A DNA stretch of 35,140 bases, taken from a virus. Below the pieces are notes generated by a model, which saw only the letters and a list, made by a program, of their open reading frames with translations, ran no database searches and was not told where the DNA came from. The DNA lies in IMG/VR virus record IMGVR_UViG_3300025264_000047, positions 1 to 35,140 of that record; one strand, 5' to 3'. Both the position numbers and the translations under genes were made by a program. This document shows positions 1,123 through 24,837 of this stretch, piece after piece. The number at the start of each line of letters is the position of its first letter. The stretch's first letter is position 1.

Positions 1123-4100
1123 TTAACGTAATGGTGAGCCAAATGCTGGCAGTTTTGCCCGCCTCATTAACTCAGGTATATTATGCAAAACCTTGTTGAT
1201 CTCCGAATCTACGTCCCGTTTAACTTCAGCCTTATGTTCAGCATCAAAATAATCAGAACTTAAAATAGAATTTTTGTATTTACGTAAATCAGAAATACGT
1301 TTATCCAAAGAATCCACATCACGCGTTACATCAAACATATAGGATCGACTTTTAATAAATGCTTGGTATTCAGGAATACGCTCTTTCTTAGCAAGGTCTC
1401 GTAATGTGGATGTAAATTGATTAGTTTCCTTCTTCAACTCATAGTATTGTTCTTGTAACCCGCGACCTTCCTTGCTAGAAAAAAAGCGTTTCACTACTGG
1501 ATATTCATAAATTTCTTTTTTCGGCAAAACAGGCTGATCAAGTGAATGCCTAAGTGTTGAATCAATCATAGATAACGCATAAGTACCAAGTGTTCCAGTG
1601 TATCCTGAAACCATATGTTCAATCTTTAACGGGCTAATATTTAATGTTTCTCCAATCGAACGGGCTAACGCATTGGTTTGAGAAGTAGATTGAAATCCCG
1701 GTGCAATGTCGCCTTGCATCCATATCGGCACAATGGCCTGACCCGTATATGCGTTTTTATTAGTATAAGCCTGTAAAAACGGACCCCACAAAGCGGTGTT
1801 GTACAGAGGGTCCATCGCAAGGGTGTTCTTCACGGCTCTCTCCATCGACTGCCTTAATTGCCTTGGAGTAGTGCTGCCATGTAAATAATCCAATATTCTT
1901 TCAGGGATAACTTTAAATATGATGCCTACTTCAAATGGAATTGGCACTCTAAAAGCAGGAGAATCCTTACCAAAGAGCTTCGGGAATAACCAATAATTAT
2001 CACGTTCATGCTGACTGGCTTTTTTATATTCATCGTCATCACTGATCATTGTCCAGTACAAAGCTGTTAATCCCGTTAAATAAACACCTCTTGTCATCGC
2101 TGTTAAAATTATCTTTTTCTTGGAAACTTCTTGTTTAGCACTATAACTTCCTTTTATAAAAGCCCGATATAAAACATCGAGTCCCTGAATTCTTGCATTA
2201 AGAAATGGGGTTGCAGCAAAAACATGCCTAAGAAAAACATTGCCACCCCTTCTTGAAAAATTAATAATTTCCAGTGCCTGAAAAGCAGCTTCAGCTTCAT
2301 TACCTGTACGCGCCAAGACATCGTTATAAACCGCATTACGAGTAGCCACATCAGATCTCGTCGAAGCCTGACCGCTCAGATGCCAAGCCTGCTTGAACAA
2401 TTTTAATCCGGGCAATTCAAACAATTCTTCAGCTTTACCCAGCTTGCCGGATTTAATGCCTCGTCTGCGTGATTCCCTAGTAAAATATTTCACTATATCA
2501 AGAGGATCATCCTTGAAATCATAACCCCCGGCAACGCCATATGATTCCAGTGTTTCCATACCATCAGTGAATCCACGTAAGGTATCTAAACCCGGCATAA
2601 AATCAGAACCACTTGTTACATATGCTGATAAAGTATCTCTCATCATATTGGCAATAATAAATCCGGGTTCGCGAGTAACCATTGCACGCAATAAAGTGGA
2701 AGGACCACCAAGAATAGCAGAGGCAACAGGACCAAGACCGGTATCTGATAATGTTCTCAAAGAGTTATACAACAATGGATCATCGAAAATAAATCTTCGA
2801 GACTGACCATTCACCCTGAAATGAATAATATGATCTTCACCAGTAGTTGATATTCCTTCTGCATCCCTTGCTATACCAATAGCTGCTGCATCCCGAACAA
2901 CACGCTGATTTGCAACATTCCTCATGCCTAGATTAATAGCCGTAGACAAATTTTGAGTAATAGCATTAAGCATTGGCACATCAATAGGCTTTGCCGAGTC
3001 TTGGGATTTACCTACAGCAGCGAACAAATTGATCTTTTTACTATGATCTTGTTTATAGAACGGGTAATAATCTGAATGCTGCATCCAATGATCACCTTGT
3101 GCATCACTCAATACCCCCGTATCTTTCAAGAATTTTACTGTTTGTTGGTTATATGCCTGCCATACCTCGTACCATTCTTCAACGATGGGCCTACCGGTCT
3201 CGGGATTAAGGTATTTTTTTATTTCAGCATCGATGTATTCTTTATCTGCTTGTTGGTCTTCAGGTTTTTGCGGGGTTATCTTGCCTTGATTGTTTAACCT
3301 TCCAGCTCTGCGGCTTATGGCATACATCTGCGCCAGTTCTTCCAGATTCTCACTGGATGGAAGTTTATATAACTGGGCCATAACATCAATCAAACCACGA
3401 TATTGTTTACCGTTATGCACAAACGGACGTACCCTGGTAACACCATTTTGATAAGTAACTACGCCAAATTTCAAAGCAGCCGCTAATGTTCCTCTGGAGC
3501 GATCTGCAAATAATACACTCGCAATCGAACTGCTATCAGCTAATAATCCTTTAAACAGTTTGTGTTGATTCATTTTTTCAATAGCAGCATATTGATTAAC
3601 CGCAGCCGCACGAAAACGCAGCATCATTCGATTGAAAGTACCGGAAAATATTCCTTCTGTTGCTTCAATATATGTTTCACCGGGAGTAACATCTTTTTCG
3701 CCTTTCCCTCCAATCAGGCGATCTCTGATATCTTCGCCAGCCTTACCTAAAGGAACTACGTTAGCCCGAGAGAACTTACTGCGTAAATTCTCAGGCAGTG
3801 TTATTCCTTTTTCAGGATTCTGTCCAATGTATTGCGCTTCTTGAGAGGCTTTCTCACTAAACCTTGAGACAGCTCCCGGTTTTGTATCGGCCCGCTCTTT
3901 TTTTACAGCCTCAACTGCAGCAGCTACCCCTTCTTCAGGGAGTGGCGTAAAGTCAGAGGTTATAGGAAAGCCAAGAAGATTGGCTATTGTTGGTCTTTGG
4001 TCGTTTTTCGGGATGAACTCAAGCCTTGTGGCTTCTTTTTTATAGGCGTCCCAGATTGGTTGATAAAGTGTATCGTTGATCCGCTCGTATAGATCGGATC

Positions 4101-7100
4101 GTCGGGTGGTAATTCCTTGATCCCGTATTTTCGCAATGCCTTTTTGATAATCTCTTGCTTCGATAAGGTCGCCATTTTGTTGATACGCCCCCGTTATTAA
4201 GTCCAAAGATGCAGGCAATTTAGATGTCAGATTAGTATAAAATTGATCAAGCGGAGAATCAACCCCCTCATCAGGTTCGACAAAATAATCCTTATCCCAG
4301 TATTGACGGGAGTCCATGAAAATAGCTGTATCAGGTTCGGTTTGACTAAAATTCAACCCATCAGGGTCATGCTCTGGATTCACACTTTCTGCAAGGGTTA
4401 CGAGTTCATCCTCAGTAAACGCCTCACCATTGGCTTTCCTGACAGCATATCCCACTTTATCTCCTGTGGGAGATGGCTGCATTATAACGGCAGAATCCTG
4501 CAGCAAAGCATCACCTAAAACACTGGCTGCCATAGATGTCTGATCCAGATTACCACCTAATAATTTGACAGAAATACCCGGAACCAAACCCGAATCATAC
4601 GTACCATATGTTAGCTTCACCTCATGCGGAATACCCATCATCCGAAGGGTTGGAATCTGCCCGTCAGCATCTATTATTTTTTCACGAACCTCCTTATTAA
4701 AATCTACCTTTGCTTTTAGCGTAACCCCTGCAGGAAATCCATATCCTCTTTTACTTCCGGGGGCAGCCTCGACTCGAATCTCGGGCGCCAGCTTTCTGGC
4801 TTCTTCAGTTAATCTAGGCCGGACATCTTCAAGTGGTATTTCTTTCTTCCCTGATTTGCGAACATATTTGATGCCTTCAGCTAATGCTGGTGTTAACGCC
4901 TCATTTTTATTAAAAATTCCCTGTTCAACCTGCGCTTCTATAGCCATCCTGTCTTTTTCAGTGTACTTATAAGCAGATTCCCAAGTACCAGTAAACCGAT
5001 TTTGTTTACCAATCGGTGATAAGTATTTTTTCCCATAAAACCATAATGCAGCCTGCATTTGATCTGGAGTGATATTATTTTCTGCTGCCAACTTGCTCGT
5101 TAAATATTCAGCATATTGATAGGCTTGATCTGACGTTGGCATCTTCGCGTCATCTACAATTCTCTTTCCTTTCTTCTTTTTTTGACGATGCCCAAAAACC
5201 CGCGCCATATGCACATCTTGAACAGAATATGGACTGAAAACATTAGCCGCCCGATCACGGGTCAGTCTCCCATATGTCGTCGCCTTAAAGGCACCCGTGC
5301 TAACAATACCTTCCTTGTACATACGAATAATTCGATCTATTTGATTCTCATTAGAAAATATTTTTCTACCATTAGGCTTTTCCTTTTTCACCGCTTTCTT
5401 GAATCCTTCAGAATCCTCTACAGGATTAATCTCTCTGGCAGTACGCATGATGTGATAAGTATCTGAAAGATTTTGTTCCGGAGGTTGTTGTTGTGATGTA
5501 ATGCCAAAAATAACAGATGCTTCCTCCATATTTGCAGTCCCGACAACATCCTCAATACCCAAGCCATATCGGTTGTACCAATATAACTCTCCACTCGTTG
5601 GTCCCAGTTGTGGTCCTACCATCTTTAAGCCCACTTGAGCCATTCTCCGCAAGCTACTCATAGATGTTGCGCTCACATCTCTATGAAGAGTATTTCTTAA
5701 TTTCGGAGTTTTTTTCGGGGCACCATCAATATTTGCAAGCTGTTTACTGCTTGGATTATTGTTGGTTCTTTGCATAAGAGCATCCAGCGCCTTGGCGGTC
5801 TTAGTCCCCGGATATATTATTGGTGCTCTTGATTCTCTTGGTGTAAGTGATGGTTCAAGGAAATCAGGTCTTTCTTGTATTACCCGCGCAACAGGTTTAC
5901 CTTCATAGGCTTCTTCTTCAGCAGTAAGAGGACGACCAATATCCCGTTCAGGAACAACACCTACTTCAGCTTCAGTAGCTCTTAATGTTCTTATTTCTCC
6001 ACGCCCTCTACCCCCAACTTCACCTAAATTGACACGACTGATAATGTCATTAAATGACTGGAATCCAGTCCCGTTCATGGAGCTGCCAAGACGTTCCATA
6101 AAATCATATATTCGCTGAAGAAGACTTCTCGGCTTTCCGGTAATAATAGTATTGTCCTGACGCGCATGCCTGAACATTTCTGCAATGGCTTCCTCCATTT
6201 GCCCTACTGGCGTTAGCACCTCTCCACGACGAGGATCACCATAAAGTTCAGCCGCTGATTCGACATAAGTCGTACCTGTTTCTTTATTAATTTTTCTTCG
6301 TGCAAGGTTTTCAAGCAATAACCATTCTTTGGCAGTCCATAAATCCAACATCCGCATAGCATGAACCATCTCATGGTCCATAATGCTGGCAACAGCATCT
6401 TCACGCTGCGACGGAGTGGCGCCTTCTGCCATCCTTACATTATCCAAGCCCAGAAAAATCGTTTTCAGTGCAGGTGCATAATGACCTTGTGTAGATTGAT
6501 AGGGACCTTCTTCATCAGGAGATACAATTTCATGGATAGGATTGCCGTCATTATCAAAACTTTGCATTGTCAATTCTTTATCTAAACGCAAAGAGATATC
6601 TTTCAGGCCAATTCGATCAAGCGCATCTCGCAAACGTATGCGAAGTTCTGTCAAACCGTTATCAGGCGCAGGCAATAATCCTGCAATAACAGGCGCTTCT
6701 TCTGCAACAGGCGCTGTTTCTGCTTCGGTTTTTCTTGCATTCAATTCTCTTTGAGACAAGCCTTGACGAGATAAGTCCTGCTTGATCTTACGCAGTTTAG
6801 TTTTACCGCCTCTCTCTTCGAGAGAGATATTTGTTGCTGCAGAAATAACCTCAATACTGGCATCATTCTCCTGTTCAACAGCAGTAACCGCCCTTGCGAA
6901 TTCCTCGCGAGTATAAGGTTTGATCTCAAACACAGGCAGTTTGCTTAATACAGAAAGTCTCGGCATTGAAACCAAACGATTAAATAATAGCCGCAACTCT
7001 CCCTTATCCATCTTGTTGATATTGGGTTTACCAACAAACGCTTTCATCAAAGCTTTCATCTCTTGGGAATCAATCTCTGAAGAAATGTTCTTTGTTTCAA

Positions 7101-8919
7101 GCACATGCTTGATTTTTTCAATTGAAATCGGAATATCTGTTAATTCAACAAGGGTGCCTTTCTCGGCAAGCCTTGCTGATATTTCAGCGGCAAGTCCAGA
7201 CAAGCGTGGATCTGATGAAGGCGGCGTCGGGGTATACAGACCAAGTTTGCCAAAATTTTCTTTAAGGGCTAACCGTGCTTCACCGACAGTAAAGGAATCT
7301 TGTTCCGAAAGACCTTGATTCAGCCGCTTCTTATTTATTTTCTGGGCAGCAGTAAGTTTCTTACCGCCTTCTATGGCCTCTACGGCAGAAAGACCTTCCT
7401 CATAGCCTTCGGCTATCGTTGTATTTGCTGCCTGATTGATTGCGGCACTACTAAAAGTATTGAAATCAGGATGCAGGGTACGCAATCCATACCTATATAA
7501 TTCCTCGGCTTGTTCTACGGTATTATAAATATGAGGAGAAACATGCAGAATAGTTTTAACCCCCTCACGAATATTATGATCGATGAGTTGGTTGTCTAGG
7601 GAATAAGCAAGTAAAGCCGCATTGTTATAGGTAAGCTGTGGTGTACCGTATTGCGTATCAGCCGAATCAGTAACAATAAATCTTGCTTCTCCATCAACAG
7701 TTCTGCCATCTTTTACAGCGAAATTAGTATTATTTGGGAACGCCGACCCCATAGTTTTCGCAATAAGTCTGCCGTAATCATCAGCGATGTCATTAACGGC
7801 ATCAGATGGGGTTGACGAATCATTAAATGCCTGCTCATCAGGATTACTTATCTGTGTAGGATTAATTCTATTTTGTGCTTCTATTGTTTCTTCTACTACA
7901 TCGGCAGGAGTACCTTCTTCATCCAACCCTGATATAAACTCAGCAACTTGCTTATCTTCGCGTTTACGCAATTCGCTTTCTTTTTCTCTTTCAACGGCTG
8001 TTGTTGTTGTGCGTCTGCGCCCAGCGGCTGCATTAAGAACTAAATCTGCAGCAAAACCTACCGCACCACCCACAGTAAAATCATCCCATAATGACTCACC
8101 TTCAGGTAAATTCTCGTTATAAACACCCGCCTCTATAGCATTTTGTGCCCAGGCAGCGGTTACTTCCTGTACCGCTTCAACACCACCCTGTTTAATAGCC
8201 TGATAAAGTTTTTCTTTAAAAGGCTTACTGGCATTTTTCCCGATGTTTTTCAATAACCGCTCAACAGGAAGTAATTCAGACAAGCCGACAAAAGCACCAG
8301 CAATAATTGCTCCTGTCTCTTGGGCATCACTGATATGAATGCCCTGCGCCCGGGCCATTTCAATTCTACGTGCCTGATCCCCGGCGCCACCGCCAACAGC
8401 AATACCAGCAGGGACACCCTTCCCAACTCCAACCGCCAACTTGCCAGTCAATCCAAGAAGTTTAACGGCGCCGGCAGGAGTAAAAAAACTGAGAAATGAA
8501 CCCAGACCTTCACCAAACTTGGTCATCCACTTTTCTCGGTAGGCAGAATCAGCCCCAATCAATTGATTTGTCCGATCTCTGCCGGCCCGTGATTTTTCAA
8601 TGAGCCAGTTCTCATCTCCGGAATCGATTGCATCTTCAAGACCAATAGAATCGGTGACTGTATCAGCCAACGCAGCAAGACCTTCGCCGGCAGACATGAA
8701 ACTATTAACAAACCCACGAGGGATCGCCTTGGCTGTTTCGTATATTTGGCCGCCAATAGTTGTTTCTTCTTCTGAATCTGTGGTCAAAGGGGCAGCAACG
8801 CTTGGTTCACGCGCTTGGCTGCTTTGTAAAGCATTGATAATAGCTTGGGTTTCTACCTCATTAGGAATATCGCCTTCAATTTCAACTCTTCCTAAACCTT
8901 CTACTTCTATGATTGGCAT
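1123..8919 (-). CDS. Giant polyvalent virion protein with zincin metallopeptidase motif and LPD38-like C-terminus
   Basis: This is a 2598-residue multidomain protein, starting MPIIEVEGLGRVEIEG. Hydrophobic, Gly/Ala-rich stretches lie near residues 136-180, 201-216 and 282-300 and could interact with membranes. A zinc peptidase motif H849-E850-M-V-H853 follows a typical strand (GHYAPALKTIFLG, about 812). Glutamates at 909, 910 and 914 (MEEAIAEMF) are candidate third ligands, so a gluzincin-like fold is likely. A block at about 1088-1330 (GELYWYNRYGLGIEDVVG onwards) resembles a conserved phage polyvalent domain, possibly DUF7178. Residues about 1940-2500, with FIIANMMRDTLSAYV and RVPIPFEVGIIFK, look like large polyvalent protein-associated domain 38. 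Such proteins are known in phages as factors injected with the DNA. It is the last and largest gene of the ejection-type block. The peptidase motif is seen; ejection and target are inferred. Confidence 0.9.
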   Translation of the reverse strand: MPIIEVEGLGRVEIEGDIPNEVETQAIINALQSSQAREPSVAAPLTTDSEEETTIGGQIYETAKAIPRGFVNSFMSAGEGLAALADTVTDSIGLEDAIDSGDENWLIEKSRAGRDRTNQLIGADSAYREKWMTKFGEGLGSFLSFFTPAGAVKLLGLTGKLAVGVGKGVPAGIAVGGGAGDQARRIEMARAQGIHISDAQETGAIIAGAFVGLSELLPVERLLKNIGKNASKPFKEKLYQAIKQGGVEAVQEVTAAWAQNAIEAGVYNENLPEGESLWDDFTVGGAVGFAADLVLNAAAGRRRTTTTAVEREKESELRKREDKQVAEFISGLDEEGTPADVVEETIEAQNRINPTQISNPDEQAFNDSSTPSDAVNDIADDYGRLIAKTMGSAFPNNTNFAVKDGRTVDGEARFIVTDSADTQYGTPQLTYNNAALLAYSLDNQLIDHNIREGVKTILHVSPHIYNTVEQAEELYRYGLRTLHPDFNTFSSAAINQAANTTIAEGYEEGLSAVEAIEGGKKLTAAQKINKKRLNQGLSEQDSFTVGEARLALKENFGKLGLYTPTPPSSDPRLSGLAAEISARLAEKGTLVELTDIPISIEKIKHVLETKNISSEIDSQEMKALMKAFVGKPNINKMDKGELRLLFNRLVSMPRLSVLSKLPVFEIKPYTREEFARAVTAVEQENDASIEVISAATNISLEERGGKTKLRKIKQDLSRQGLSQRELNARKTEAETAPVAEEAPVIAGLLPAPDNGLTELRIRLRDALDRIGLKDISLRLDKELTMQSFDNDGNPIHEIVSPDEEGPYQSTQGHYAPALKTIFLGLDNVRMAEGATPSQREDAVASIMDHEMVHAMRMLDLWTAKEWLLLENLARRKINKETGTTYVESAAELYGDPRRGEVLTPVGQMEEAIAEMFRHARQDNTIITGKPRSLLQRIYDFMERLGSSMNGTGFQSFNDIISRVNLGEVGGRGRGEIRTLRATEAEVGVVPERDIGRPLTAEEEAYEGKPVARVIQERPDFLEPSLTPRESRAPIIYPGTKTAKALDALMQRTNNNPSSKQLANIDGAPKKTPKLRNTLHRDVSATSMSSLRRMAQVGLKMVGPQLGPTSGELYWYNRYGLGIEDVVGTANMEEASVIFGITSQQQPPEQNLSDTYHIMRTAREINPVEDSEGFKKAVKKEKPNGRKIFSNENQIDRIIRMYKEGIVSTGAFKATTYGRLTRDRAANVFSPYSVQDVHMARVFGHRQKKKKGKRIVDDAKMPTSDQAYQYAEYLTSKLAAENNITPDQMQAALWFYGKKYLSPIGKQNRFTGTWESAYKYTEKDRMAIEAQVEQGIFNKNEALTPALAEGIKYVRKSGKKEIPLEDVRPRLTEEARKLAPEIRVEAAPGSKRGYGFPAGVTLKAKVDFNKEVREKIIDADGQIPTLRMMGIPHEVKLTYGTYDSGLVPGISVKLLGGNLDQTSMAASVLGDALLQDSAVIMQPSPTGDKVGYAVRKANGEAFTEDELVTLAESVNPEHDPDGLNFSQTEPDTAIFMDSRQYWDKDYFVEPDEGVDSPLDQFYTNLTSKLPASLDLITGAYQQNGDLIEARDYQKGIAKIRDQGITTRRSDLYERINDTLYQPIWDAYKKEATRLEFIPKNDQRPTIANLLGFPITSDFTPLPEEGVAAAVEAVKKERADTKPGAVSRFSEKASQEAQYIGQNPEKGITLPENLRSKFSRANVVPLGKAGEDIRDRLIGGKGEKDVTPGETYIEATEGIFSGTFNRMMLRFRAAAVNQYAAIEKMNQHKLFKGLLADSSSIASVLFADRSRGTLAAALKFGVVTYQNGVTRVRPFVHNGKQYRGLIDVMAQLYKLPSSENLEELAQMYAISRRAGRLNNQGKITPQKPEDQQADKEYIDAEIKKYLNPETGRPIVEEWYEVWQAYNQQTVKFLKDTGVLSDAQGDHWMQHSDYYPFYKQDHSKKINLFAAVGKSQDSAKPIDVPMLNAITQNLSTAINLGMRNVANQRVVRDAAAIGIARDAEGISTTGEDHIIHFRVNGQSRRFIFDDPLLYNSLRTLSDTGLGPVASAILGGPSTLLRAMVTREPGFIIANMMRDTLSAYVTSGSDFMPGLDTLRGFTDGMETLESYGVAGGYDFKDDPLDIVKYFTRESRRRGIKSGKLGKAEELFELPGLKLFKQAWHLSGQASTRSDVATRNAVYNDVLARTGNEAEAAFQALEIINFSRRGGNVFLRHVFAATPFLNARIQGLDVLYRAFIKGSYSAKQEVSKKKIILTAMTRGVYLTGLTALYWTMISDDDEYKKASQHERDNYWLFPKLFGKDSPAFRVPIPFEVGIIFKVIPERILDYLHGSTTPRQLRQSMERAVKNTLAMDPLYNTALWGPFLQAYTNKNAYTGQAIVPIWMQGDIAPGFQSTSQTNALARSIGETLNISPLKIEHMVSGYTGTLGTYALSMIDSTLRHSLDQPVLPKKEIYEYPVVKRFFSSKEGRGLQEQYYELKKETNQFTSTLRDLAKKERIPEYQAFIKSRSYMFDVTRDVDSLDKRISDLRKYKNSILSSDYFDAEHKAEVKRDVDSEINKVLHNIPELMRRAKLPAFGSPLR

Positions 8920-19259: not shown

Positions 19260-19293
19260 AAAAAACTAATTCAGATACTCACCTGTCCGAATT
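19260..19293 (-). terminator. Candidate intrinsic terminator after lysozyme
   Basis: On the minus strand an 8-bp stem (AATTCGGA with TCTGAATT, one G-T pair) and a 10-base loop are followed by AG and six T. The hairpin overlaps the last codons of the lysozyme gene and lies just upstream of the ribosome site of the next gene. The stem is A+T-rich, so termination may be partial. Confidence 0.5.
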
Positions 19294-19706
19294 ATTTCTG
19301 CCAATTCTTTAGACCTGTTACCAACCTGACTGGCCCACCGACTATCAAGAAATTGCTTACCAGCCTCTTCCCAGTCACCTGATTCCATCGCCTCCAATGC
19401 CTTTCTGAACCCTCTCAACCTTGTCTGTCCAAGATTAAAGCTGATATCAACCATCGCATCGGAGCGTGCTTGATTCAGTCCTGCAAACCACGCATATTCA
19501 CCATCCAGTTCTTGCATCACTCGATCAATATCGTTCTGTAACAAATAATCAACCTCGTCATCCGACAACCCCAATCCTCTTGCACGACCGTTATCACCGG
19601 CATCGATATTCCTGCCCACGCCGATAGTCGTGAAGTTCTGACTGCATAAATAAGCGTGACTTTCCACGCCTTCATGGCGACGCAACATTTCGGTTAATTT
19701 ACTCAT
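19266..19706 (-). CDS. Endolysin, GH24 (T4-type) lysozyme
   Basis: The 146-residue protein is a T4-type lysozyme that cleaves the N-acetylmuramic acid to N-acetylglucosamine bond of peptidoglycan. The catalytic block reads RRHEGVESHAYL-C-SQNFTTIGVG. E12, C21 and T27 align with E11, D20 and T26 of T4 lysozyme, matching the E-8-D/C-5-T pattern known in this family, here with Cys in the middle. The C-terminal lobe shows DISFNLGQTRLRGFRKAL and RWASQVGNRSKELAEII, also typical. There is no signal peptide or anchor, so release needs a holin. The start overlaps the lipoprotein stop (ATGA). It closes the lysis cassette. Confidence 0.93.
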   Translation of the reverse strand: MSKLTEMLRRHEGVESHAYLCSQNFTTIGVGRNIDAGDNGRARGLGLSDDEVDYLLQNDIDRVMQELDGEYAWFAGLNQARSDAMVDISFNLGQTRLRGFRKALEAMESGDWEEAGKQFLDSRWASQVGNRSKELAEIIRTGEYLN

Positions 19707-20092
19707 TCTTCTATATGTTGTTCTTTATCCTCTTTTTGCCGTTCTTTATCAACATCCCGGTAATATTCAATTATCGATAAAACTTGTCTGATATACCGTT
19801 GAATCTGTGCCATGTTATTACTAATATTCTCGTATCCTTTAGTGGTTAGAGAATACCACGCATTAACTGGAGCTTCGCCAGCCTTCAAATCCTCCAAATA
19901 CTCTTCCATCGTGTCCGGTGTCAAAATCTTCCATTCGACCGGCATACTCTTGATTCTGGGTGGAAGCGGCGGGTGATACATCGGAGCCGGTTTCTCGATG
20001 GTTACCACTTCCACTGGCCTCACCTCCGGCGGACGAAACGCCGTTGTGCAACCACTGCAAATTAATAGCAGAACCAGAACCAAGACTTTCAT
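19703..20092 (-). CDS. Small lipoprotein, o-spanin-like
   Basis: The 129-residue protein begins MKVLVLVLLLICSGC-TT. This is a short lipoprotein signal peptide with C15 as the probable lipidated residue, although Cys at position -3 is less usual than Leu or Val. Residues 19-47 are Pro-rich (EKPAPMYHPPLPPR), as in outer-membrane spanin subunits. The rest is helical and charged (EEYLEDLKAGEAPVNAWYSL, then MAQIQRYIRQ), ending acidic. It lies two bases after a membrane-anchored coiled-coil protein and overlaps the lysozyme start. This order (inner-membrane coiled coil, lipoprotein, lysozyme) suggests a spanin pair that disrupts the outer membrane at lysis. The lipoprotein call is firm and the spanin role is inferred; it is longer than most Rz1-type proteins. 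Confidence 0.8.
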   Translation of the reverse strand: MKVLVLVLLLICSGCTTAFRPPEVRPVEVVTIEKPAPMYHPPLPPRIKSMPVEWKILTPDTMEEYLEDLKAGEAPVNAWYSLTTKGYENISNNMAQIQRYIRQVLSIIEYYRDVDKERQKEDKEQHIEE

Positions 20093-20094
20093 GT

Positions 20095-20517
20095 TTAACC
20101 TTCTGTTTTCTCATCAAACTGACCCGGATTCGTTAAATCTTCAAGTTCTTTAAAAACAGTTGCCGTACCACGATTAACAAGTTTTTCTACTAATCCTGGC
20201 TTACGCAACGACAACATATCAAGATCATGCCGTGCAAATTTCTCGCGTAATTCATCGATCTTTTCAGTTGCCTCATTATTAGAAACAGTCAACAATTCAA
20301 TACGTGCATCGGATGTCTTTTTATTTTCAATCGCTTTCTCAATTTGCTTATTCTGAGTATCAATTGCATTCTCAAGACGTAACTGATTATCCATTGATGT
20401 CTGCAACTGCATTGCTATAGCCATTTTCTCCGCTTCTGACTTGTCATAGTAGAGTTTAAAAGCTCCCGACAACATCACTAAAGCAATTCCTAGCACAATA
20501 GATAATTTAAACCCCAT
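20095..20517 (-). CDS. Membrane-anchored coiled-coil protein, i-spanin-like
   Basis: The 140-residue protein has an N-terminal transmembrane helix (residues 4-22, KLSIVLGIALVMLSGAFKL). A long coiled coil follows (about 28-95), rich in Gln, Glu, Lys and Asp. The C-terminus (KPGLVEKLVNRGTATVFKEL) is predicted to be helical. N-in anchor plus periplasmic coiled coil is the layout of inner-membrane spanin subunits (Rz type). The next gene encodes a lipoprotein that could be its partner. A weak GGGAAA site lies upstream. Topology is seen; pairing and the lysis role are inferred. Confidence 0.8.
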   Translation of the reverse strand: MGFKLSIVLGIALVMLSGAFKLYYDKSEAEKMAIAMQLQTSMDNQLRLENAIDTQNKQIEKAIENKKTSDARIELLTVSNNEATEKIDELREKFARHDLDMLSLRKPGLVEKLVNRGTATVFKELEDLTNPGQFDEKTEG

Positions 20518-20938: not shown

Positions 20939-21628
20939 TTAATTAACAACTTTTTTGTCGATATCTTGAACATTCCAAACATTTAGATTAGCCGCCACAG
21001 TGCGACGCTCACCATCTCCTTCAAATGGATATACAGAATGCTGAAGCCATGACGGAAACATAAGAAACTTTCCAACTTCAGGCTTAATCACAAAGCTCTG
21101 AGGAGGCCGTAATCTCTCAACATCAATTACAGAATTAATTCCATAATTAAATGCCAAGCAACCATCGGCATTTCCACTAGCGTTATACAGAGAATACTCC
21201 GGGCTTCCTGCTGTAGGCTGATCTAATATCTGCTGAGGCACTTTCGTCCATGCAGTACATGAAACGCCCATCAGTGTTTTAGTGCCATGATCATGGATGG
21301 GATTATAATCACGTTCATAAGAATGTACTGACCATAATTCATCGATCTCGATTTGACGCTCACCACTCAGTGGATTATCAGTAATTTGACTAAAATGCTT
21401 CACATAATCCGCTGCTAAAACTCCGGTCATTTCACAAAAAGCAGCCAGTCTTGAATCCTTATGATCCATCGTCAACTGCTGCCCATGACCAATTTGACCC
21501 ACCAATGTACCAGCGTGGGAAACACGATCATCCTTCTCCATTAACTCATCTAAATACGCATTGAGTCCTTGCACCATATCTTCTGGCATCCATGTTTCTA
21601 AAAGAAACACCGATGGAACCGTGTGCAT
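20939..21628 (-). CDS. 2OG-Fe(II) oxygenase-like protein
   Basis: The protein is 229 residues from ATG 21628, preceded by AGGA. A GTG at 21649, overlapping the upstream stop, would add seven residues. It has the double-stranded beta-helix layout of iron/2-oxoglutarate oxygenases: a metal-binding stretch NPIHDHG (H112, D113, H114), a Gly/Ser strand, and a distal LQHSVYPF with H197, followed by GERRTVAANL whose Arg (208/209) would bind 2-oxoglutarate. This resembles the phage family Pfam 2OG-FeII_Oxy_5. The acid normally two residues after the first His is replaced by His, or shifted. The substrate is unknown; it could hydroxylate a phage or host protein. It follows the tail-fibre and small-protein genes and precedes the lysis cassette. 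Confidence 0.8.
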   Translation of the reverse strand: MHTVPSVFLLETWMPEDMVQGLNAYLDELMEKDDRVSHAGTLVGQIGHGQQLTMDHKDSRLAAFCEMTGVLAADYVKHFSQITDNPLSGERQIEIDELWSVHSYERDYNPIHDHGTKTLMGVSCTAWTKVPQQILDQPTAGSPEYSLYNASGNADGCLAFNYGINSVIDVERLRPPQSFVIKPEVGKFLMFPSWLQHSVYPFEGDGERRTVAANLNVWNVQDIDKKVVN

Positions 21629-21645
21629 TTTGTATTCCTGTTTTA

Positions 21646-21963
21646 TCACGAAGGCACTGCAAAAGCTTTATCAGGAACTGGCTGCACTACAGGACTGGTA
21701 ATCACTGAAGCTACTTGGCTCGCAAATATAACGTCCCAATGTGAAACAGGACAGAGAGCGACTAAATTTGCATTACTAAATGTACCTTTGGCAGCTTTGC
21801 TAAAATCTCCATCATCTGCAACTGCTATATGAGTAAAAATACTTGTGTAGTAAGTAGAATCACCTTCGCTATCATTCTCATACTTCATTTCAATTTCCCA
21901 TTTCTCCACTCTGTTAGATTTAACATAAGGAATCGTTTTTACTAACGCTTTTGTGACAGCCAT
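21646..21963 (-). CDS. Small protein of unknown function after tail fibre
   Basis: The 105-residue protein begins MAVTKALVKTIPYVKSNRVEKWEIEMKY-like and appears to be mostly beta strands (YYTSIFTHIAVADDGDFSKAA, LVALCPVSHWDVIFASQV). There is no signal peptide or membrane span. The start directly abuts the tail-fibre stop (TAG then ATG), so it is co-translated with the fibre. Small genes in this place often encode fibre-assembly or adaptor proteins; I cannot name the family. Confidence 0.75.
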   Translation of the reverse strand: MAVTKALVKTIPYVKSNRVEKWEIEMKYENDSEGDSTYYTSIFTHIAVADDGDFSKAAKGTFSNANLVALCPVSHWDVIFASQVASVITSPVVQPVPDKAFAVPS

Positions 21964-24837
21964 CTACTTATCCTCATTTCCACATTTGTTATGCGATTTA
22001 CTTTCTAATTCTTTAACTTTTTCTGAAAGTTCTTGGATTGCTTTCACTAAGATAGGTACAAACTTACTATACTGTAAACCGTACTGTTTGCCGTCTTCTG
22101 TAAGATGCGTAGTAAGATTTGTTTTATCAGAAATGACATATCCTGCCTCTTTCTCTAAAGCCTCAACCGCTTGAGCTTTAAAGCCCACGTCTAACCAATC
22201 TTCTTTATGAGTGCCGTCGTGCGTGATTGCATCTAAATCATCGCCCTTTTCAGCGTACTTAGAACGCTTATCCCACTTATATGTAACAGGCTCAAGAGCT
22301 TTTACAAAGTCTAAACCGAGATTTAAGGCTGTAAAATCTGTCTTGTCTCGTTCATCAGAAGCGACTGTCCAGTCAACCTGGATATGAGCATTGGCGATAT
22401 TTTCATCACCAAGACAAATTTGATTGTCTCCTGTAGTAACAGCACCACCTGGAGAGTTTGCAATTCCTGCATCTCTTCCCAAACAAAGATTATTATCGCC
22501 TGAACTAATCACATTACCAGCAGAAATCCCTACACCCGTATTAAATATTCCAGCGACAACACCATTAAGTGCGCCCTGACCGACAGCCGTGTTTGAGCCT
22601 CCGGTGGCATTTTGCAGTGCATCAGCACCGATAGCAGTAGAAGAATTAGCATCAACCATCGCAACTAGCGCACCAGAACCTACAGCCGTATTACTTGCTC
22701 CATCTACATTTACTCCTAGTGCATTGTCACCAAAAGCAGTGTTGTTGCTCGCTGTCGTATTAGCATCGAGAGCATTTGCGCCCACAGCTACGTTATTCGT
22801 TCCAGTTGTATTGGCAGCAAGCGCACTTACTCCTACCGCTACATTATTGGCTGCTGTCGTATTCGCGGTCAGGGCTGCATAACCAACAGCAGTATTGCCG
22901 CCACCAGTACAAGCCTCTAAAGAAGATTGTCCGACAGCGGTGTTACTATTTACATCTACAGACACAACAAGAGCATTATAGCCAACAGCAACATTCCCTG
23001 TTCCGGTCGTGTTTGCACCGAGAGCTGCATAACCTACAGCAACATTATTGCTAGCGGTGCTATTGACGTCTAAAGCTAGGTAGCCAACAGCCGTATTGCT
23101 ATCACCAGTATTTGCTGCTAATGCGCCTTTACCAAGAGCCGTATTATTTGATCCCGTACTAACAGTGCTAAGAGTATCAACGCCCATTGCGACGTTGTAA
23201 TTACCTGTGGTAATTGATGTTCCTGCAGAACTTCCAATAACAGTATTTTGTGCGCCCGTAGAATTTGCCAACAAAGCAGCAGAGCCAACCGCCGTGTTAT
23301 AACTTGCTGTTGTCGTTGCCCCACCAGCATTGTCACCTATAAAAGTGTTATCAGCTCCAGTGGTGACTGCATCTCCTGCCGCGTTTCCAACCAACGTATT
23401 ATCAGTCCCTGTGCTGACCGCAACTCCGGATTGATAACCGACTGCTGTATTATTGTTGCCCGTAGCAACTTTTAATGCTTCAAATCCAACTGCTGTTCCT
23501 GTCGTTCCGGTGGACATAGTAAGTAAAGCACTTGCTCCAACGGCAGTATGACCTGACGCAGTAGTTACTGCCCCGCCCGAATTAAGCCCAACGAAAGTGT
23601 TATTCGATCCGGTTGTTACTGCATCGCCAGAAGTGGCTCCAAGCAAAGTATTTCCAGCACCCGTGCTGACAGCCAAACCTGCACGATAACCAACTCCACT
23701 ATTATTATTTCCAGTTGCAGCTTTAAGTGCTTCAAATCCAACTGCTGTCCCATTCGTTCCTGTGGTAATAGTTTGTAAAGCAGCAGAACCTACTGCTGTA
23801 TGACTTGATGCAGTGGTTATTGCCCCGCCAGCGTTATCTCCGATTAAAGTATTGCTGGCACCAGTCGTTACAGCATCTCCGGCTTCGTTTCCTATTATCG
23901 TATTCTCTGTCCCTGTGCTAACGGCCACACCTGACTGATAACCGAGTGCTGTGTTGTTATTGCCTGTCGCTACCTTAAGTGATTCAAATCCAACCGCTGT
24001 TCCTGACGTACCGGTACTTATAGTAAGCAGGGCACTCGACCCAACTGCGGTATGTCCTGAAGCCGTAGAAACCGCTCCTCCAGCATTGTCTCCGACAAAG
24101 GTATTATCAGCACCAGTCGTGACTGCATCGCCTGCTGCATAACCGATAGCTGTGTTATCTGTTCCGGTCGAATTGGCTTTAAGAGTATCAGTTCCGACTG
24201 CCGTATTATCAGCAGCGGTCGTCGCTACAAGTAAAGCCGCAGAGCCTATCGCAACACTATTGCTGCCAGTTGTTAATGCACCTGCTGCATTGTCTCCGAC
24301 AGCCGTGTTGTCTGATCCAGAAGTGACTGCATCAAGCGATGCCTCACCTATGGCTACATTATCTGTTCCAGTGGTTATGGCTGTTCCTAAGTTACCAGAA
24401 CCAAGTCCTACATTGCCTGTCCCACCAGTTAAATCTAATACATCAGTAACTGCTGCACCTGCACCTGCACCATCAGCAACAATCATCTTAATGCCACCAT
24501 TAGGAATGACGACATTTGCACCTGTGCCTTGAGATATAGATACAGCATACCCTGCTGAATTTTGGATGATCCAAGTCTTGTTAACTGTGTTTGGAGCAAG
24601 CGTTACGGTATTAAGGGCAGTAGTGCTTCCCGTTAGAGTCATTACCATCGCTCTGGCAGCATCTGATGCACCATCAGCCATCGTAATCGTATGTGTGGTT
24701 CCCGTGATGCCTTCTGAACCACTACCAAAGGCTTCGCCTATCAATTCTAAGTTGGTATTGGTGCTAGTGCCCCAGGTTCCTGACTCATCGCCAGTTGCGA
24801 TTTCTTTCAGTCTTAAATCATTTACATATGTCGCCAT
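21964..24837 (-). CDS. Tail fibre with S74 intramolecular chaperone domain
   Basis: The 957-residue protein has an N-terminal region (1-140, MATYVNDLRLKEIATGDE) likely used for attachment. A long array of 14-16 residue units follows (about 144-810), with the pattern TG-x-N-T-A-V-G, similar to trimeric adhesin head repeats. Inside it an 84-residue unit is repeated three times exactly in register (from H262, H346, H430). The C-terminus from S827 is a peptidase S74 endosialidase-type chaperone (SDERDKTDFTALNLGLDFVK, GFKAQAVEALE), which in known fibres cuts itself off before the Ser of SDxRxK after trimer folding. AAGGT lies upstream. It recognises the host surface by inference; the receptor is unknown. 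Confidence 0.92.
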   Translation of the reverse strand: MATYVNDLRLKEIATGDESGTWGTSTNTNLELIGEAFGSGSEGITGTTHTITMADGASDAARAMVMTLTGSTTALNTVTLAPNTVNKTWIIQNSAGYAVSISQGTGANVVIPNGGIKMIVADGAGAGAAVTDVLDLTGGTGNVGLGSGNLGTAITTGTDNVAIGEASLDAVTSGSDNTAVGDNAAGALTTGSNSVAIGSAALLVATTAADNTAVGTDTLKANSTGTDNTAIGYAAGDAVTTGADNTFVGDNAGGAVSTASGHTAVGSSALLTISTGTSGTAVGFESLKVATGNNNTALGYQSGVAVSTGTENTIIGNEAGDAVTTGASNTLIGDNAGGAITTASSHTAVGSAALQTITTGTNGTAVGFEALKAATGNNNSGVGYRAGLAVSTGAGNTLLGATSGDAVTTGSNNTFVGLNSGGAVTTASGHTAVGASALLTMSTGTTGTAVGFEALKVATGNNNTAVGYQSGVAVSTGTDNTLVGNAAGDAVTTGADNTFIGDNAGGATTTASYNTAVGSAALLANSTGAQNTVIGSSAGTSITTGNYNVAMGVDTLSTVSTGSNNTALGKGALAANTGDSNTAVGYLALDVNSTASNNVAVGYAALGANTTGTGNVAVGYNALVVSVDVNSNTAVGQSSLEACTGGGNTAVGYAALTANTTAANNVAVGVSALAANTTGTNNVAVGANALDANTTASNNTAFGDNALGVNVDGASNTAVGSGALVAMVDANSSTAIGADALQNATGGSNTAVGQGALNGVVAGIFNTGVGISAGNVISSGDNNLCLGRDAGIANSPGGAVTTGDNQICLGDENIANAHIQVDWTVASDERDKTDFTALNLGLDFVKALEPVTYKWDKRSKYAEKGDDLDAITHDGTHKEDWLDVGFKAQAVEALEKEAGYVISDKTNLTTHLTEDGKQYGLQYSKFVPILVKAIQELSEKVKELESKSHNKCGNEDK
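22357..22359 (-). other. Predicted S74 self-cleavage point (codon of Ser827)
   Basis: This is the Ser codon of the SDERDK motif in the tail fibre. In the S74 family the chain is cut immediately before this Ser, which would release a 131-residue chaperone and leave an 826-residue mature fibre. Confidence 0.7.
23299..24054 (-). repeat. Three 252-bp tandem units in the tail fibre
   Basis: The units start at residues 262, 346 and 430, each 84 residues long with no indel; a fourth partial unit begins at 514. Each unit contains HTAVGSSALL, GTAVGFEALK, ATGNNNT, YQSGVAVSTG and IGDNAGGA-type blocks. Confidence 0.9.

Follow-up and report, generated by a model that had tools for sequence, protein, structure and literature searches.

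A giant phage polyvalent protein with a conserved chassis, a predicted zincin peptidase and an exchangeable cargo slot

A single giant gene of an uncultivated virus codes for a polyvalent protein that, like its relatives in IMG/VR, is built as a fixed chassis (modules N and M, a peptidase P, S, LPD38 and U) around a cargo slot, at residues ~1004-1690, whose content is swapped between relatives. Our computational analysis shows the gene, its conserved site, a predicted zincin-like fold, the plan of chassis and cargo, a linker motif and the co-occurrence of these parts. We propose that the protein is borne in the virion, that the chassis serves delivery and that the zincin frees the exchangeable cargo at Ser-Arg (SR) linkers, and we put the probability of this reading at roughly 55%. 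Zincins and LPD38 are already known from polyvalent proteins; the fixed slot, the peptidase-tied linker motif and the DNA-glycosylase-like cargo appear to be new, as far as the literature was searched.

The gene takes up 22% of the window, by which we mean the whole 35,140-base stretch that was analysed, and runs from 8919 down to 1123.

1123..8919, minus strand: whole gene, 2598 codons (2598 aa, 288 kDa), ATG start

One gene of 2598 residues filling about a fifth of the window had been predicted originally, and this is what we find, on the minus strand; a plus-strand reading of the same interval was dropped owing to stops throughout. The window also codes for portal, capsid, tail spike, lysozyme and Rz proteins. 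Within it the giant gene is the last in a run of large same-strand genes and is followed by three small ones on the same strand (136-1097). The order is stable among relatives: homologues of the 641-aa and 738-aa genes lie upstream of the giant on the same strand in 56/56 and 67/67 of the relatives having them, and those of the 172-, 809- and 617-aa genes in 35/35, 64/64 and 22/22. The gene was also thought to end a block of ejection-type genes; its place at the end of the large same-strand run stands, but the upstream quartet could not be assigned to known ejection proteins. Elsewhere on the minus strand, a lysozyme (146 aa) and an Rz-like spanin (140 aa) at 19266-20517 lie inside the block of virion genes, ahead of the giant gene rather than behind it. 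A 2OG-Fe(II) oxygenase (20939-21649; phrog_81, E 3e-21) sits between the spanin-like and tail spike genes, and the 957-aa tail spike (21964-24837) contains nine stretches matching phrog_4636, i.e. it is repeated or mosaic. Downstream of the giant, the C-terminal half of the small gene at 417-800 matches phrog_10198, a family of unknown function.

The chassis modules were defined by profiles in 45 non-redundant giants.

8020..8778, minus strand: N module, residues 48-300, Gly/Ala-rich and amphipathic, common to 33/45 non-redundant giants
6715..7797, minus strand: M module, residues 375-735, missing in L004, L026 and L050, which keep the peptidase
5905..6690, minus strand: P module, residues 744-1005, metallopeptidase domain, zincin-like by conservation and model fold
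2080..3852, minus strand: S module, residues 1690-2280, conserved C-terminal chassis, present also in PTXU04, phiARM81mr and Vibrio phage 1.232
1492..2037, minus strand: LPD38 (T module), residues 2295-2476, E 1.1e-32, in 41/45 non-redundant giants
1126..1479, minus strand: U module, residues 2481-2598, defined by profile

The LPD38 (PF18857) match scores 114.2 bits against a curated cut-off of 27, which confirms the predicted LPD38-like end, and the presence of LPD38, a zincin and cargo domains in one chain bears out the designation as a polyvalent protein. The roughly 2000 residues for which no function could originally be named can now be divided into five modules of the chassis and a single swapped cargo. 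Weak matches link the N module to phrog_10691, to virion structural families and to the N-terminal region of the N4 virion RNA polymerase; when a T7-type RNA polymerase domain was looked for in the giant, no polymerase match was obtained, the N4 likeness being weak and N-terminal (residues 190-367). Hydrophobic Gly/Ala stretches are present as predicted, at 139-157, 161-179, 205-223 and 281-299, but their Kyte-Doolittle means reach only 1.26-1.48, so that the membrane contact deduced from them is weakly supported. Such hydropathy is too low for true transmembrane helices, a candidate that we dropped, and the stretches look amphipathic or glycine-zipper-like rather than clearly membrane-spanning.

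Evidence for the slot comes from comparing relatives segment by segment. A search with residues 1004-1680 matched one other giant of the set (L050), whereas the flanks matched dozens; among 42 giants compared pairwise, P matches in all 861 pairs, the C-terminal part in 493 and the cargo in 163. Between L004 and L050, identity is 68-70% in P as well as in the C-terminal part, with no cargo match, whereas L004 and L027 share 62% identity in the cargo as against 36% in P and 36-50% in the chassis; judged from the sequences, this is the pattern of cassette exchange. Pfam domains found in the relatives' slot comprise ART-PolyVal (8), DUF7178 (8), NUDIX, HATPase, methyltransferase and ASCH, and a literature search for DUF7178 returned no papers. 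That ADP-ribosyltransferases, NUDIX and other enzymes occupy the same slot supports the earlier suggestion of a multi-effector. P adjoins the swapped slot in every giant that carries P.

The peptidase itself is marked by the sole HExxH of the giant, of which about 0.03 would be expected by chance, with E909, E910 and E914 downstream.

6361..6375, minus strand: HEMVH, residues 849-853, predicted zinc ligands H849 and H853 and predicted general base E850
6178..6195, minus strand: EEAIAE, residues 909-914, in the next-but-one helix, model pLDDT about 93-96

H849, E850, H853, R856, D859, E865, E909, E910 and A913 are invariant in 47/47 non-redundant P domains, and E914 is kept in 44/47. Because this set was fetched partly by HExxH itself, those fetched with the N module or the cargo weigh more: HExxH occurs in 48/48 P domains of the former and in 10/10 of the cargo-fetched giants with a full P domain, while cargo-fetched giants on another chassis have an HExxH of a different type, unless the ORF is cut. 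The model of residues 744-1005 (pLDDT 80, pTM 0.77) has a helix at its N-terminus, beta strands, and separate helices for HEMVH and for the glutamates. Foldseek of this model against the PDB gave nothing at E <= 0.001, its first ten rows all being one and the same zincin. In a structural realignment to the PDB (VIA, where a Z below 8 is middling), lethal factor came top with Z 6.8 over 154 residues, a likeness of fold only at 13% identity; PPEP-1, PPEP-3, IrrE/PprI and SPRTN were also matched, and nearly all top rows were zincins or carried a zincin-like domain. The conserved site and the fold matches together make it very likely that P is a zincin. Zinc would be held by H849, H853 and probably E910, which we infer to be the likeliest third ligand, with E850 acting as general base. 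The claim that HEMVH and the glutamates at 909-914 support a working metallopeptidase is supported, in that the predicted site is intact and strictly conserved and that the model around 849-914 is zincin-like rather than a fold devoid of a zinc site. As to family, no curated Pfam peptidase model matches the window protein, and the relatives' matches (BSP, SprT-like, Zincin_1, M76 and Mx1) are all sub-threshold. The widespread phage MPTase clade described by Iyer 2017 (PMC5512222) has a conserved His ending strand 2 and an Asp three residues after HExxH; in P, position +3 is the invariant R856, the Asp lies at +6 (D859) and no further His is invariant. One relative, L094, has a second HExxH (HESLH) at residue 1230, inside its cargo, so that a putative peptidase can also occur as a cassette.

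The cargo slot of the window protein is flanked by two candidate linkers.

5824..5835, minus strand: E1029-S-R-A1032, candidate upstream cassette linker, a weaker SR variant outside the tested motif class
3763..3774, minus strand: F1716-S-R-A1719, downstream cassette linker, of the form [FY]SR[RKAS]

In 32 giants [FY]SR[RKAS] occurs 22 times in the cargo, where shuffles expect 2.2, 13 times within 60 residues of the start of S, and never in N, M or P; permuted motifs, two overlapping ones aside, give 0-5 in the cargo and 0-4 at the S boundary. Twelve of the 13 sites deep in S belong to a single conserved segment, INFSRRG, which had inflated the expectation in S and was counted apart, and clustering by flanks reduces 35 motif sites to 13 groups. 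Cassette breakpoints fall within 10 aa of a motif in 18/114 cases against 5.0 expected; between L018 and L048, homology resumes exactly at residue 1219/1454, with the motif in both. Motif and breakpoint counts alike are drawn from related proteins, which renders the P values optimistic. An independent set of seven giants has five sites in the cargo, five at the boundary and none before, with controls at ~0.2-0.3. The tested form is missing in 12/32 of the peptidase-bearing giants.

Could the motif be a mere flexible linker or cassette seam, in a protein that stays whole? The coincidence of breakpoints with the motif would fit, as would its surroundings, which are linker-like in composition, and the N4 virion RNA polymerase, which according to PMC5512222 has an MPTase yet is packaged uncut. 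However, the 50 sites comprise 45 distinct 12-mers and use every one of the six Ser and six Arg codons; because the codons vary in this way, the motif is kept at the level of the protein, and a seam of shared DNA was dropped as an explanation. Moreover, a plain linker needs no F/Y-S-R in register, and we therefore regard this alternative as unlikely.

Relatives that lack the peptidase serve as a natural control. In eight contigs (four non-redundant) N, M and LPD38 are present; P, HExxH and the motif are absent, and there is no room for cargo, the ORFs being closed at about 1,900 aa, with one cut. The motif is found in 25/39 P-bearing and in 0/4 P-less giants (p = 0.025). Six giants of isolated phages that share S, LPD38 and U without a full P contain one motif site in total, and a general occurrence of the motif in published LPD38 giants was dropped on this count. 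In the sequences compared, peptidase, cargo and motif thus tend to be either all present or all missing, for which reason P is better regarded as a processing enzyme built into the protein and tied to its exchangeable cargo. The peptidase had originally been left with an unknown target and a possible role as an injected protease; of these views, a free effector is now less favored and processing linked to the cargo is the better reading.

These data bear on two further alternatives. First, the zincin may itself be the effector and, once injected, cleave a protein of the host, with the cargo joined by mosaic recombination and not released by P. Both uses are allowed for by Iyer 2017 (PMC5512222), the nearest solved folds include secreted effector proteases, and the strict conservation of P extends to giants that have hardly any cargo (L031, L038 and L058). 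L038 and L058, whose cargo amounts to only ~100 aa, retain both P and the boundary motif, so that the cargo is not the only thing for which P is kept. Nevertheless, the position of P beside the slot wherever it occurs, its constancy while cargo and hosts change, and the lack of cargo and motif in the P-less relatives render this explanation quite improbable. Second, the SR linkers may be cut by the phage prohead protease or by a host protease, P doing something else. There is precedent in phage P1, whose prohead protease Pro trims DarA during assembly (PMC12810830), and F-S-R-R, being basic, could be attacked by many proteases. Yet the P-less giants, which should share the head protease, are devoid of the motif, and the isolated-phage LPD38 giants without P have it only once in six proteins, so that we consider an outside protease very unlikely.

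Returning to self-processing by P, the proposed course of events is as follows. The giant of this tailed phage would most likely travel inside the virion and enter the cell together with the DNA; we infer this because the LPD38 protein gp69 of phage JC1 is found in virions, because the upstream genes are syntenic and because the N module weakly resembles the N4 polymerase. N, M, S, LPD38 and U would form the conserved delivery chassis, with P directly before the cargo slot. In keeping with the autoprocessing put forward for polyvalent MPTases in general by Iyer 2017 (PMC5512222), on which this step is based, P would cut at the SR linkers after assembly or once inside the cell, at FSRA 1716 and perhaps at ESRA 1029. 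Such cuts would yield pieces of about 112, 77 and 99 kDa and free the cargo, which in the window is predicted to be an HhH-GPD-like, possibly DNA-repair or DNA-modification, domain plus an alpha/beta domain, and the freed cargo may act early on DNA or host defence. A bolder version, which we advance tentatively and would not bet on, extends this to a whole clade of uncultivated tailed phages: an injected self-processing polyprotein with a standard cargo slot, in which a dedicated zincin would read a linker code of the type [FY]SR|[RKAS] and free swapped effectors one by one in the cell.

The window's own cargo is a 640-aa cassette that recurs in 21 other viral contigs, nine of them with the same chassis and P and others with different giants.

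3877..5808, minus strand: cargo cassette C, residues 1038-1681
4900..5808, minus strand: C1, residues 1038-1340, HhH-GPD-like predicted fold, invariant K1212 and D1235
3970..4899, minus strand: C2, residues 1341-1650, predicted alpha/beta (ferredoxin-like), weak fold matches

C1 was likened to HhH-GPD glycosylases by its ordered invariant Lys and Asp before any model existed. In the cassette model (pLDDT 82.5), which includes the stretch 1080-1350 singled out in the original prediction, it takes on an HhH-GPD-like fold with low to moderate support. Realigned to the PDB with VIA, C1 matches AGOG with Z 7.3 over 197 residues, followed by PUGT (6.9), MutY (6.8), MagIII (6.6) and EndoIII (6.2); all Z are under 8, and no other fold in the realignment list covers C1. 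Foldseek of the cassette model against the PDB gave nothing at E <= 0.001. K1212 and D1235 are invariant in 22 sequences and lie at helix starts, as do their putative counterparts in EndoIII. At the level of sequence, a PF00730 search of C1 and the window gave no match, a search for EndoIII relatives in viral contigs found none, and an HhH-GPD profile compared with C1 by hhalign scored 19.5 (P 0.064, not significant; controls 10-16), its best local match falling on the expected Asp motif. Going by the model, C1 probably has the HhH-GPD fold; that it also has DNA glycosylase activity is rather doubtful. C2 matches phage SAM lyases (Svi3-3, T3 SAMase) weakly, with Z 5.3-5.9 over 112-125 residues, and AcrB porter domains score as high. 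At cassette position 409 (window residue ~1446) the relatives' C2 has a near-invariant Glu in an E-P motif, a candidate equivalent of Glu69 of the SAM lyases, where the window has Val, and the second cargo domain may accordingly be altered in the window protein. DUF7178 did not match the window cargo at E 10; three homologues match it weakly (best E 0.21). In L104 and L105, the profile of window-type C1 is split by an insert of ~90 residues.

How does this family compare with known systems? The polyvalent proteins of Iyer 2017 (PMC5512222) are likewise giant and multidomain, with LPD38, a zincin-like MPTase, ART and other enzymes, and are coded beside virion genes, as is the window giant. The present family differs in its fixed chassis, its single defined cargo slot, its recurrent SR linker motif and the DNA-glycosylase-like cargo; the text of that paper accessible to search mentions no cleavage motif, cut site or test, and the word "glycosylase" is absent from it. 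The DarB-like antirestriction protein gp69 of Burkholderia phage JC1 / Bcep22-like phages (4515 aa; 51 unique peptides from purified virions) also has LPD38 near its C-terminus and is the last large gene of its virion block, but it contains transglycosylase, methylase-helicase and LPD3 domains, and a zincin of the window type is not reported there (PMC9144972). It thus shares the LPD38 end with the window giant and, as far as tested, not the peptidase. In Escherichia phage PTXU04, Aeromonas phage phiARM81mr and Vibrio phage 1.232, the giants have S, LPD38 and U in common with the window protein but no full P, no HExxH and almost no SR motif; phiARM81mr alone has a partial P match (E 1e-4). DarA, DarB and DdrB of P1 are internal proteins co-ejected with the DNA, and DdrB, which contains an MPTase, undergoes processing (PMC5512222; PMC12810830); in contrast to the window giant they are several separate proteins, and DarA is cut by the prohead protease (PMC12810830). 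Finally, C1 resembles the HhH-GPD glycosylases AGOG, MutY, EndoIII and MagIII and the phage amino acid:DNA transferase PUGT in predicted fold and in the order of Lys and Asp; sequence profiles do not support the likeness.

The idea that a zincin cuts the polyvalent protein that contains it (Iyer 2017) now becomes directly testable, with a residue motif, a peptidase, fragment sizes and a peptidase-less control at hand. The slot could in addition guide the search for phage anti-defence enzymes, in that whatever lies between P and S is probably an effector of early infection, most of them unnamed. An injected DNA-glycosylase-like cargo, if true, would be an unusual weapon or shield, and a linker code, if true, would give polyvalent proteins their first cleavage code, allowing cassettes such as ADP-ribosyltransferases, NUDIX and glycosylase-like domains to be freely swapped.

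As to distribution, IMG/VR yielded four whole-protein relatives, 80/368 confirmed matches for the peptidase profile, 21 for the cargo and 80/101 for the N module. The C-terminal third of the giant matches 51 of 50,697 annotated phage genomes, among which the N-terminal 1006 residues have no relative even at E 0.01, and a PDB sequence search with the whole protein and with profiles of the peptidase and the cargo returned nothing credible. Only seven relatives, mostly distant and in alphaproteobacteria, came out of one scan of 84,980 prokaryote genomes; so low a number indicates that the giants come mainly from non-integrated phages. Distant peptidase relatives (L110-L115) lie on Rhodobacteraceae and Sphingopyxis contigs, probably as prophages, and hint at alphaproteobacterial hosts. 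The 3209-aa giant of L002/L003 resembles the window's in M and P and is unrelated in its N and C-terminal parts; it contains three ART-PolyVal stretches with I-RESR linkers between them.
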